Positions 617 to 4,182 of a stretch of DNA of 64,000 bases are shown piece after piece; within the stretch, counting starts at the first letter, position 1, and each line of letters opens with the position of its first letter. The position numbers and the translations under genes were made by a program. Source of the DNA: Rhizobium rosettiformans (lineage in GTDB: Bacteria > Pseudomonadota > Alphaproteobacteria > Rhizobiales > Rhizobiaceae); contig NZ_CP032405.1 of the NCBI RefSeq assembly GCF_016806065.1, positions 372,001-436,000 on the forward strand, written 5' to 3'. The notes beneath the pieces are model-generated. The model saw nothing but the letters and a program-made list of their open reading frames with translations, did no database searches and was not told the origin of the DNA.

Positions 617-1474
617 TCAGGCAGCCACTGTGCTGGCGCCGTAGGTCACGCCCTTTTCTTTCAGCCAGCGGCGATAGGCGATGGACGAGGCATCTGCCCG
701 CGTTGGGATTTCCTTGCGCGGCTCCAGCGGCAGGAGTACCGGCCGCTGGTTTTCAAGGATGATGCGGTCCTGCAGGAAGATCATCTGCTGGAAATGGATA
801 AGCTCCGTGGTCGTTGAGACATCGTCGATCAGATACATGATCGGATGCGCCCGGCAGCGGCCGGGATCGAGCGGCTGGACGAAGAGGCCGATGACATCCC
901 AGCGATTGGTAGCGTTGGGACATGTCTTGTAGAGGATCGTGGCGAACGGCGTCATCACCCGGTACATGTATTGGGTGGTGATGCCGTCGGACGCCGACAG
1001 AGCCGCCTGCGGCTGGAAGAAGGTGCAGTTGGTCGCCCAGACCTCGTCTTCGTCGCGGCGGATTTCGACATCATAGCTCTGTACTTCCGTATGCGGCTCG
1101 GCTCCCAGAACATCCGTATGCACGAAGGGGAAATGCGCCATGTCGAGGAAGTTCTCGACGATGCGAAGTCCTGAAGCCTTCACCGTGACCACGCCGCAGG
1201 GCACATAGCGTCTATCCGGCTCGTCGGCCTCCGGCAGCGGAAAGATCTCGCGCTCGGGCTCGCCCAGCGTCGCCCAGAGAAAGCCGAAGCGATGGCGTAG
1301 CGGCAGCGGCTCGGCCCGCCCCTCGGCAAACACTTCGATCGCCCCATCCGCTTGTCTGACGACAGTCAGATCCGTCCCGAGCAACCGGTTCTGCGATCGG
1401 CCCACAGGGATCACCGCCTCGGTATCGAGCACATACCACTGATCAAGCGACGCCTTGTCGATACCGTTCTGCAT
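617..1474 (-). CDS. Rieske-oxygenase catalytic subunit that has lost its Rieske cluster
   Basis: A 285-residue protein related to the alpha subunit of vanillate/PobA-type Rieske oxygenases. The mononuclear-iron site is intact: N108-x2-D111-x2-H114-x4-H119, with a likely carboxylate ligand D236 in FLQDRIILENQ. The N-terminal scaffold of a Rieske domain is still recognisable (QWYVLDTEA near residue 12, GFLWATLGEP near 64), but the CxH and CxxH cluster-binding hairpins between them are absent. Family members are normally about 340-430 residues with both domains. Electrons would have to come from another protein, and the best candidate is the Rieske-only protein encoded divergently at 1869-2540. 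The substrate is unknown; no reductase gene is nearby. Confidence 0.82.
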   Translation of the reverse strand: MQNGIDKASLDQWYVLDTEAVIPVGRSQNRLLGTDLTVVRQADGAIEVFAEGRAEPLPLRHRFGFLWATLGEPEREIFPLPEADEPDRRYVPCGVVTVKASGLRIVENFLDMAHFPFVHTDVLGAEPHTEVQSYDVEIRRDEDEVWATNCTFFQPQAALSASDGITTQYMYRVMTPFATILYKTCPNATNRWDVIGLFVQPLDPGRCRAHPIMYLIDDVSTTTELIHFQQMIFLQDRIILENQRPVLLPLEPRKEIPTRADASSIAYRRWLKEKGVTYGASTVAA

Positions 1475-1590
1475 AGTCTGTCTTTCCTCTGGAGCACGGG
1501 AGAAACCGCTTGAAACCCGATCTCACCCGCCGCTAGATTGCCCAAAAATTAGAGCGCGCACAATTGCAAGGCAACACTGATCCCCATCCG

Positions 1591-1872
1591 ATGACGGCGA
1601 AAGCCGACCATATGACCGTCGGCTTCACCTTTTCCGGAAGGCTGGAGCCGCAGGGCTTCATCGCGTTCGCCGAACATCGGGCCGCCCGCCTCTCGCTCGG
1701 GCTCAAGATTGCGGCCTGCGACTACGATCGCTGTCGCCTGACGCTGTCGGGCCCGGAAGCCCTGATCGACGCCTTCGAAATGGCGGTCAGCCTCGGCCCC
1801 TATGACAGCATCGTGCTCGACGTGACCCGCTTTCAAACAGACGAAGACTTGCCCGCAAAGGCCGCATCATGA
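1591..1872 (+). CDS. Acylphosphatase-like protein with altered active site
   Basis: About 93 residues from the ATG at 1591; a TTG at 1564 would add nine, and an ATG at 1612 is also possible. No start has a clear ribosome-binding site. The pattern GRLEPQGFIAFAEHRAARL followed by LSGPEALIDAFEMAV and GPYDSIVLDV follows the acylphosphatase fold, where the catalytic loop normally reads GxVQGVGFR. Here the catalytic Arg position is Ile, and the catalytic Asn position is not obviously kept, so it may bind rather than hydrolyse. It ends in a 4-base ATGA overlap with the Rieske gene, so the two are translated together. The fold assignment is by eye. Confidence 0.6.
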   Translation: MTAKADHMTVGFTFSGRLEPQGFIAFAEHRAARLSLGLKIAACDYDRCRLTLSGPEALIDAFEMAVSLGPYDSIVLDVTRFQTDEDLPAKAAS

Positions 1873-2540
1873 CATCAACCTCTCCCTGGATCCCCGTTGC
1901 CCTTTCCGCGGACGTCGAGGCCGGCACCTCTGCCGGCACCCTCGTCAACGGCGAGGAGCGCGTCGTCTGGCGTGACGACAAGGGCGAAATCCATGTCTGG
2001 GAGGACCGCTGTCCGCATCGCGGCATGCGCATGAGCTTCGGCTTCGTGCGCGGCGACCACATCGCCTGCCTCTATCACGGCTGGCGCTACGACACGGGTG
2101 GCCAATGTCGCTACATTCCGGCGCACCCGGATCTCGAGGTGCCCCAGACCATCAAGGTCCCGACCTTTGCCGCAACCGAACGCGCCGGGATAATCTGGAT
2201 GGCACCGGACGGGGCGGATGCAGCGGACCTCTCGACGCTTCCCGAGACGGCCGAAGCCGTCCGCAGCCTGTTTCTCGACCTGGCGACGAATGCGGCTTTG
2301 CTGGCGGTGACGGCAGCTCCACCCGACGGGTATCGTCCGGTCGAGAGTGGGACTGGCTTGGTTACCTTCCAAGGTAACGACCTGACAGTGCTGATCGCAG
2401 GCCAACCCCGCGACGCCGGCCGGACGGCCCTGCACATCACGGTGAGCGGACACACCTCCGCAGCCACCCGCCGCGACCTGATCCTATGGGCGACCGACCT
2501 GCGCAACCGGCTCGAAGCCCAGACGACGGAGGCGGCGTGA
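1869..2540 (+). CDS. Rieske [2Fe-2S] protein lacking the catalytic iron domain
   Basis: A 223-residue protein whose first half is a full Rieske domain: C48-P-H50-R-G and C67-L-Y-H70-G-W, with 16 residues between the two ligand pairs, as in ring-hydroxylating oxygenases. The C-terminal ~110 residues carry no N/D-x2-H-x4-H mononuclear-iron site. It complements exactly what is missing from the divergent oxygenase-like protein at 617-1474, so the two may form one heteromeric oxygenase. It is ATGA-coupled to the acylphosphatase-like gene before it and overlaps the GST gene after it by one base. Confidence 0.85.
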   Translation: MTSTSPWIPVALSADVEAGTSAGTLVNGEERVVWRDDKGEIHVWEDRCPHRGMRMSFGFVRGDHIACLYHGWRYDTGGQCRYIPAHPDLEVPQTIKVPTFAATERAGIIWMAPDGADAADLSTLPETAEAVRSLFLDLATNAALLAVTAAPPDGYRPVESGTGLVTFQGNDLTVLIAGQPRDAGRTALHITVSGHTSAATRRDLILWATDLRNRLEAQTTEAA

Positions 2541-3166
2541 TGATCAGGCTCTACGACTACCACCTCGACGAAAACGGCTTTCGCGTCCGCCTGCTCCTCT
2601 CCATGCTCGGCCTCTCCTTCGAGACGGTTGCCGTCGACAAGGCACCGGGCCGCGAGCAGGAAAAGCCGCATATGCTGGCCCTCAACCCGACCGGCACGCT
2701 GCCGATCCTCGAAGACGGCGATGTCAGGTTGTTCGGCACGGCGGCGATCCTGGCTTATCTCGTCCGCGCCCATGCGCCTGACAGTCCCTGGCTGCCCGCC
2801 GATGCCGCAGACTTCGGACGCGTCCAGCAATGGCTGGGCTTTTCCGGCCGAGAACTGAAACCCGCAATCGACGCCCGCGAGGCGGCCCTCTTCACCACCG
2901 AAGGCGCAAGCGAGGCCGACCTGAAGGCGGCGCGAAAAGCCTTCCGCATCATGGAAGACCACATGACGCTGCGGCAGATCGAAGGCTCGGACTGGTTCGT
3001 CGGCAACGCCCCGTCACTCGCCGACCTCGCCCTCCTGCCCAGCTTTGCGCTTTCGCGTGACTGCGGCATCGACCATGACGAATACCCCGCCCTTCGCCGC
3101 TGGCTGCGCCGCTTCCGCGCGCTGCCTGGCTTCATCACCATGCCGGGCGTACCGGATTACCATTGA
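2540..3166 (+). CDS. Glutathione S-transferase family protein
   Basis: A 208-residue cytosolic GST: thioredoxin-like N-terminal domain (MIRLYDYHLDENGFRVRLLL, with NPTGTLPILEDG for glutathione gamma-Glu contacts) and an all-helical C-terminal domain with SLADLALLPS. The ATG shares one base with the Rieske gene stop, fixing the start and implying coupled translation. The context suggests conjugation or isomerisation of an oxygenase product, which is inference. Length is normal for the family. Confidence 0.88.
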   Translation: MIRLYDYHLDENGFRVRLLLSMLGLSFETVAVDKAPGREQEKPHMLALNPTGTLPILEDGDVRLFGTAAILAYLVRAHAPDSPWLPADAADFGRVQQWLGFSGRELKPAIDAREAALFTTEGASEADLKAARKAFRIMEDHMTLRQIEGSDWFVGNAPSLADLALLPSFALSRDCGIDHDEYPALRRWLRRFRALPGFITMPGVPDYH

Positions 3167-3225: not shown

Positions 3226-4182
3226 ATGATCCGCATCGTCTTTCTCGACCGGGACACGCTGTCGCCGGAAACCGTGGTCCGCGCGCCCTCCGTGCCGCAT
3301 GAAATGGTGGTCCATGCCCGCACCGCACCGCATGACGTGGCGGAGCGCATCCGCGACGCAGATGTGGTGATCACCAACAAGGCCCCTGTCCGTGCCGAGG
3401 CTCTGGCTGGTGCTGCGAAGCTGAAACTGATTGCCGTCTCCGCCACCGGCACCGACATTGTCGATCTTGCGGAAGCCAGGACGCGAGGCATCGCCGTCTG
3501 CAATATCCGCAATTATGCGAAACACACGGTGCCCGAACACACCTTCGCGCTGATGCTGGCGCTGCGCCGTTCGATCCTGCCCTATCGCCAGTCGGTGATC
3601 GAGGGACGCTGGCAGCAGGCCGCGCAATTCTGTTATTTCGATTACCCCATCGCGGATCTCGGCGGCTCGACGCTCGGCATCATCGGCCATGGCACACTCG
3701 GCCAGTCCGTCGGGCGCATCGCCGAGGCCTTCGGCATGACCGTGCTGGCCGCCGGTCGTCGCGGCGCAACCGACCTCAAACCCGGCCAGACGGCTTTCGA
3801 CGAGGTCCTGAAGCGCTCTGACGTCATCACCCTGCACTGCCCGCTGACACCGGAAACGCGCGGCGTGATCGGCATCAGAGAATTCGCCCTGATGGAGCGC
3901 CGCCCGCTGCTGATCAACACCGGACGCGGAGGCCTCGTCGATGAACTGGCGCTGGAAAAGGCCCTCGATACCGGCCAGATCTCCGGCGCCGGCTTTGATG
4001 TCACCGATGGCGAACCGCCCGCAGCCAACAGTCCGATGATGCGGATTGCATCACGCGAAAACGTCATCCTCACCCCGCATGTCGCCTGGGCAAGCCGCGA
4101 GGCGATCCAGGCGCTGGCCGACCAGCTGATCGAGAACATCGAGCTCTTTCTAGCCGGCACGCCCCGCAATCTTGTTGGCTGA
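3226..4182 (+). CDS. D-2-hydroxyacid dehydrogenase (glycerate dehydrogenase/HprA-like)
   Basis: A 318-residue NAD(P)-dependent D-2-hydroxyacid dehydrogenase. The Rossmann motif GxGxxG appears as GHGTLG in GSTLGIIGHGTLGQSVG. The catalytic Arg is in INTGRGGLVDE, the Glu in DVTDGEPP and the His in LTPHVAWAS. The closest family pattern is glycerate/hydroxypyruvate dehydrogenase (ATGTDIVDLAEAR). It follows the GST gene by 59 bases in the same direction and may belong to the same operon. The substrate is not proven. Confidence 0.88.
   Translation: MIRIVFLDRDTLSPETVVRAPSVPHEMVVHARTAPHDVAERIRDADVVITNKAPVRAEALAGAAKLKLIAVSATGTDIVDLAEARTRGIAVCNIRNYAKHTVPEHTFALMLALRRSILPYRQSVIEGRWQQAAQFCYFDYPIADLGGSTLGIIGHGTLGQSVGRIAEAFGMTVLAAGRRGATDLKPGQTAFDEVLKRSDVITLHCPLTPETRGVIGIREFALMERRPLLINTGRGGLVDELALEKALDTGQISGAGFDVTDGEPPAANSPMMRIASRENVILTPHVAWASREAIQALADQLIENIELFLAGTPRNLVG

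Follow-up and report, generated by a model that had tools for sequence, protein, structure and literature searches.

Two divergent genes of Rhizobium rosettiformans appear to share out the work of one enzyme, the first encoding a catalytic-only protein without a Rieske cluster and the second a Rieske-only protein without a catalytic site, and we think it very probable that the separate proteins together make one Rieske non-heme iron oxygenase activity, by the steps proposed near the end of this paper. It is the homology, the complementary loss, the co-occurrence, the selection and the gene context that carry this estimate, and from them we infer a complex, an electron path, a reductase, a substrate and an order of events.

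The window, by which we mean the whole stretch of DNA that was analysed, is 64,000 nt long (assembly GCF_016806065.1, contig NZ_CP032405.1, positions 372,001 to 436,000 of the forward strand), and its relevant features are collected in Table 1. The layout of the genes suggests that both promoters presumably lie within the stretch that separates the divergent pair. The frame of the small protein is open from a TTG at 1564, with ATG 1591 or ATG 1612 the likelier starts. The dehydrogenase is a neighbour in 15 of the 98 free-Rieske loci that have the small gene, and those 15 are the window's close relatives. At 359-550 the window also carries a gene for a CsbD-like stress protein, which has no relation to the split oxygenase.

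Table 1. Features of the split-oxygenase module and its surroundings (positions in the window)
Feature	Position	Strand	Basis or remark
Catalytic-only Rieske-oxygenase subunit, NdmC-like, 285 aa	617..1474	-	D111/H114/H119/D236 kept, Rieske cluster lobe missing
Intergenic stretch separating divergent genes	1475..1590		Gene layout
Small acylphosphatase-like protein	1591..1872	+	ORF and family comparison
Rieske-only protein, 223 aa	1869..2540	+	Rieske domain and degenerate catalytic-domain remnant
Glutathione S-transferase-like protein, NdmE-like	2540..3166	+	ATG 2540; GTG 2537 possible
D-2-hydroxyacid dehydrogenase	3226..4182	+	Adjoins module; possible role in system

Two proteins and the residues they keep

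The minus-strand protein falls into the VanA_C catalytic family and has no match among Rieske families; the plus-strand protein matches the Rieske family. Both match the same solved single chains in the PDB, SxtT and SxtDIOX, in largely complementary parts: residues 51-280 of the catalytic protein align with SxtDIOX 101-333, and residues 6-126 of the Rieske protein with SxtT 11-132, the ranges overlapping by about 30 residues. In nine related loci both proteins align to one and the same single ORF. The family matches and these complementary alignments bear out the original prediction of an oxygenase split in two, and the details hold as well. The iron triad and bridging Asp that it named as kept without a cluster are invariant in 56 aligned catalytic-only sequences, and the divergent gene has, as foreseen, the cluster ligands and no catalytic site. 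Its Rieske domain covers approximately residues 1-112, with ligands C48, H50, C67 and H70 invariant in 45 aligned Rieske-only sequences; residues 113-223 are a degenerate remnant of a catalytic domain in which H189 and R212 are invariant. The predicted structure of the catalytic-only protein is poor around H119.

Purifying selection acts on both active halves. Measured against the same eight close relatives, dN/dS is 0.03-0.06 for the catalytic-only protein and 0.24-0.61 for the fast-evolving C-terminal part of the Rieske-only protein. This remnant domain (window 2205-2537) changes several-fold faster than the Rieske domain, yet keeps its invariant His and Arg.

What kind of proteins are these, then? 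The alpha subunit of a Rieske oxygenase has a Rieske motif and a 2-His-1-Asp site in one chain; here the motifs are split over two chains, and both are present when the pair is taken together. A Rieske ferredoxin is a Rieske domain alone, of about 100 aa (103-115 aa for those among the PDB matches); the Rieske-only protein has 223 aa with its catalytic remnant, and its best solved matches are oxygenases, with ferredoxins weaker.

Co-occurrence across genomes

All 99 surveyed genomes with a catalytic-only gene (5 overlaps removed) also have the Rieske gene. Because the same two-gene state recurs in 99 genomes, a frame error or assembly artefact is ruled out, as the original prediction had argued in holding that the split was no misread frame. 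Trans-complementation, which it had also proposed, is well supported by the comparison of sequences: genomes with one gene alone were sought, and among the 99 none carries the catalytic-only gene without a Rieske gene.

The 99 come from four surveys. Among relatives, the catalytic protein finds a match in 31 of 60 genomes; in two of these (G050 and G010) the match is weak and lies in a longer frame of single-chain type, which leaves 29, and in 29 of 29 the Rieske match has an E of 9.8e-27 or lower. In the window's order 64 of 397 genomes match, or 62 once two single-chain cases (G114 and G149, their loci inspected) are set aside, and the Rieske partner lies on the same contig in 62/62, at most 7,587 bases away and within 200 bases in 39/62; this co-occurrence and proximity rule out chance neighbours. 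Rieske matches without a catalytic-only gene occur in 12 further genomes of the order (G114 and G149 included), in frames of 338-491 aa. Nine of 385 genomes match in the class survey, the window's own and one single-chain case (G763) among them, and the partner is present in 7 of the 7 new ones; the 22 matches among 398 genomes of the phylum comprise 9 already counted, 7 single-chain and 6 new, with the partner in 6/6. In a contig collection of 80 loci, where some loci come from one genome and some coincide with survey loci, 77 have the catalytic, Rieske and GST genes together and 73 have the small gene; the three outside the 77 have no Rieske gene in range, and their genomes have one elsewhere. 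Ten of the 29 relatives carry two diverged catalytic-only genes with one Rieske-only gene, and an eleventh (G017) has two near-identical catalytic matches in a fragmented assembly.

Might the Rieske-only protein be a general electron carrier, with the catalytic-only protein using another Rieske donor or none? The cluster has no reductase and the genome does hold other Rieske matches, but the strict co-occurrence and proximity of the two genes, the oxygenases rather than ferredoxins at the head of the structural matches, and the retained remnant with its invariant H189 and R212 all speak for a dedicated partner, as does the Rieske homologue of sister systems, which is fused to a reductase and adjoins the same kind of catalytic subunit. 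We hold the carrier reading to be improbable. Still further from our expectation, to the point that we would be surprised by it, is that the pair is a relic whose catalytic-only protein has given up oxygenase chemistry for, say, ligand binding or hydrolysis. To lose the in-chain cluster is drastic, and the fast evolution of the Rieske protein's C-terminal part would suit a relic; the invariant triad and bridging Asp, the low catalytic dN/dS and the invariant Rieske ligands would not.

Free forms, fused forms and NdmCDE

The closest known system is NdmCDE of Pseudomonas putida CBB5, a 7-methylxanthine N7-demethylase of the caffeine pathway. According to excerpts of a review (PMC4408171), NdmC is without a Rieske cluster, NdmD has an extra one, and NdmE is a GST-like protein postulated to align the two; the same excerpts call the system very unique in its family and place homologous clusters in 18 further organisms, beyond the closest mainly Sinorhizobium and Mesorhizobium. 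Its structure is said to be unsolved in the excerpted text of another paper (PMC13237722). For comparison we used plasmid p1 of Paraburkholderia caffeinilytica, whose caffeine-type cluster holds a nucleobase symporter, two single-chain oxygenases, genes in the NdmC, NdmD and NdmE positions and two formaldehyde genes; the Ndm names there are assigned from gene order and homology, the record itself using generic ones. The window's catalytic protein is 46% identical to the NdmC-position protein over residues 4-280, residues 7-200 of its Rieske protein are 34% identical to residues 12-209 of the 591-aa NdmD-position protein, and its GST is 40% identical to the NdmE-position protein over residues 2-205. 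In other words, a catalytic subunit without a cluster, a Rieske centre supplied by another protein and a GST-like third protein are common to both systems, with homology in all three positions. The differences are that the window's Rieske protein is free whereas that of NdmD is fused to a reductase, that the window has the extra acylphosphatase-like gene, and that in some free-form genomes one Rieske gene goes with two catalytic paralogues. Beside the window's module we found no reductase, methylxanthine demethylase or formaldehyde genes.

How common is the free form? Our 145 loci, some covering one place twice, divide into 111 free-Rieske, 16 fused, 11 single-chain and 7 without a Rieske gene in range. 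In the order survey the free form is the larger group by open frame, 41 of 62 (that is, 41 of the 397 genomes sampled), with 18 of the 41 seen free in retrieved loci and 23 classed on frame length; 12 of the 21 fused-like genomes were classed on frame length and genus. Frame length as a sign of fusion proved misleading in G1114 (L175), where a long spurious frame masked a free Rieske gene.

The gene orders are varied. In Sinorhizobium meliloti a plasmid carries a tandem pair of catalytic-only genes together with a fused Rieske-reductase and a GST, and tandem catalytic-only pairs adjoin one fused Rieske-reductase gene at L118, L138, L141, L142 and L143. The free form in Rhizobium leguminosarum runs acylphosphatase, Rieske, catalytic, GST, amidohydrolase, BMP transporter. 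In Komagataeibacter nataicola the free Rieske, GST and separate VanB-type reductase genes adjoin each other, and at L121 (3909-6842) this species has a further, divergent catalytic-only gene accompanied by a 177-aa Rieske protein, a GST and a separate reductase of its own; at L147 a free Rieske gene lies near a VanB-type reductase with Fer2, FAD and NAD domains. On a plasmid of P. putida 1290 (L117, 8847-10602) the NdmD-like gene is broken into three separate ORFs.

A quick maximum-likelihood tree for the catalytic protein sets all 61 catalytic-only rows apart from 15 single-chain rows by one branch (SH-aLRT 99); the catalytic-only clade contains both fused and free systems, and some branches are long. 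The Rieske tree parts split from single-chain forms weakly (74) and puts most fused rows together (97), in a group that also takes in free rows L156 and L162, the divergent K. nataicola row and the broken P. putida gene. A 359-aa full-length oxygenase at L121 (13834-14913) groups with the single chains in the Rieske tree. On these comparisons the split is probably single and old. It is probably also older than the parting of fused (NdmD-like) from free forms. The nearest single-chain VanA_C-type oxygenases (for example L176, L178, L179 and L183), like SxtT and SxtDIOX, combine the fold, the iron triad and the Rieske motifs of the window pair, but have both centres on one chain; the methylxanthine demethylases NdmA and NdmB likewise differ in being single chains with their own Rieske cluster, and their plasmid homologues are distant in the catalytic tree.

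Because one catalytic clade holds fused and free systems and the window has homologues of all three NdmCDE proteins, its system is best read from these comparisons as a free-Rieske variant, or sister form, of NdmCDE. The original prediction had drawn the analogy of trans-complementation with NdmCDE and noted the fused Rieske there, and both points stand, although the kinship is closer than it stated. It had also spoken of a candidate new oxygenase architecture; the free Rieske and the acylphosphatase-like partner do differ from NdmCDE, but the phrase is too strong, because all three proteins, the GST included, are homologous to proteins in the NdmC, NdmD and NdmE positions. What we see as new is that the Rieske protein is unfused, that it has an acylphosphatase-like companion, that one Rieske gene often goes with two catalytic paralogues and that many related clusters, unlike the window's, have purine-type genes for transport and deamination; neither the open-licence papers among the literature matches listed nor the excerpts of PMC4408171 and PMC13237722 show a description of the free-Rieske form.

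One could go further and see here an ordinary 7-methylxanthine demethylase of the NdmCDE type, with nothing new in its function, from which the reductase domain has been lost or moved. We consider that unlikely, despite the three homologues, the shared catalytic clade and the BMP-type transporters that also occur in fused loci (7/16). Free forms outnumber fused ones in the order; most have the small protein, which no fused locus has; markers for guanine deaminase (34/98) and adenine deaminase (30/98) occur in free loci and both in 0/16 fused; and none of the 98 free loci has the nucleobase symporter seen on the caffeine plasmid.

The small protein, the purine context and a proposed mechanism

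Gene layout and homology agree with the predicted setting of a free 223-residue Rieske protein beside an acylphosphatase-like protein and a GST. The small gene occurs in none of the 16 fused loci but in 98 of the 111 free-Rieske ones; among these 98 it lies on the Rieske gene's strand in 97 (median gap 25 bases, largest 5,117), and the GST gene shares that strand in 98/98. Its likeness to acylphosphatase (PF00708) is weak, seen in 6 of 8 family members tested, all 8 lying below the Pfam cut-off (best 17.3 bits vs 22.5), and one R. leguminosarum plasmid record names a homologue acylphosphatase. The window protein has no acylphosphatase match in Pfam at E 1, and its best PDB match is a weak alignment to 2fhm (E 0.13), in which the positions that we take to be the catalytic Arg and Asn are Ile and Ala. 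The family has a conserved stretch of its own around DAFEMACSLGP. Raw counts are suggestive, a separate reductase accompanying 2 of the 98 free loci that have the small gene and 4 of the 13 that lack it, one of the 4 being the P. putida plasmid with the broken NdmD-like gene. The idea that the small protein replaces a dedicated reductase does not reach significance once the tree is allowed for (median p 0.625 over 6 independent pairs), and because the link fails that correction we keep it only in the four-protein module described below.

On what might such a system act? The larger cluster at L035 includes a BMP (PnrA-like) ABC transporter and a guanine deaminase that scores above its curated cut-off, with an adenine-deaminase-like protein and a TRZ/ATZ-type aminohydrolase that both score below theirs. 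By similarity, at least one of six purine-type markers is found in 71/98 free loci with the small gene, 9/13 without it, 8/16 fused and 9/11 single-chain loci, counts that take in near-duplicates and loci of unequal size; with representatives at 78% identity the same groups give 17/24, 9/13, 7/14 and 7/9. Three BMP homologues occur in the 5.14 Mb of the window's genome, so that the chance of one lying within 20 kb would be about 1%. Neither the window nor its close relatives have purine markers beside the module, where they carry the 2-hydroxyacid dehydrogenase instead; the window's genome has a BMP transporter set at another place. Among the single-chain loci (within L176-L184), a BMP-type binding-protein gene is near in 9/11 and a guanine-deaminase-like gene in 3/11. 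Because near single-chain oxygenases also adjoin BMP-type transporters, the purine context may, on these sequences, predate the split. For the family at large, a GST-scaffolded oxygenase acting on a purine-like compound is likely; that its function is purine oxidation we would guess to be a toss-up, and less than that for the window itself. Cytokinin was set aside as a substrate, the literature matches listed concerning, by title, no bacterial Rieske enzymes.

The steps that we propose are these. A reductase from another part of the genome, perhaps the VanB-like one near 593.7 kb on the main contig, would pass electrons to the [2Fe-2S] cluster of the Rieske protein, and these would then move across an interface between the two proteins to reach the mononuclear iron in the catalytic protein, where O2 would be activated on the substrate. 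A candidate reductase in the window's genome, near another oxygenase, is 32% identical to that of K. nataicola. VanB-type candidates in this genome lie at C1:593678 and C1:2495180. The GST-like protein would hold the halves together, by analogy with what is postulated for NdmE. The halves look like duplicates of one single-chain oxygenase, each having lost what the other kept, and the reaction would most likely oxidise a purine-like compound, perhaps by N-demethylation, in the family as a whole and less surely in the window. A bolder picture, which we offer tentatively and think rather doubtful as a whole, is a four-protein module born of a purine-acting single-chain oxygenase by duplication and complementary loss, in which one free Rieske protein supplies two catalytic subunits, interchangeable and differing in specificity, and a catalytically dead acylphosphatase-fold protein docks a shared reductase in place of a dedicated one, giving rhizobia and their relatives a catabolic route for N-alkylated guanines or adenines.

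Ordinary Rieske oxygenases, arranged as trimers, hold both metal centres in one chain; here the electron path would cross between independent proteins, so that donor and catalytic halves could be separately swapped, mutated and titrated. The free-Rieske form would make of the donor a small, separable protein, and its gene context points to an uncharacterised route of purine oxidation.
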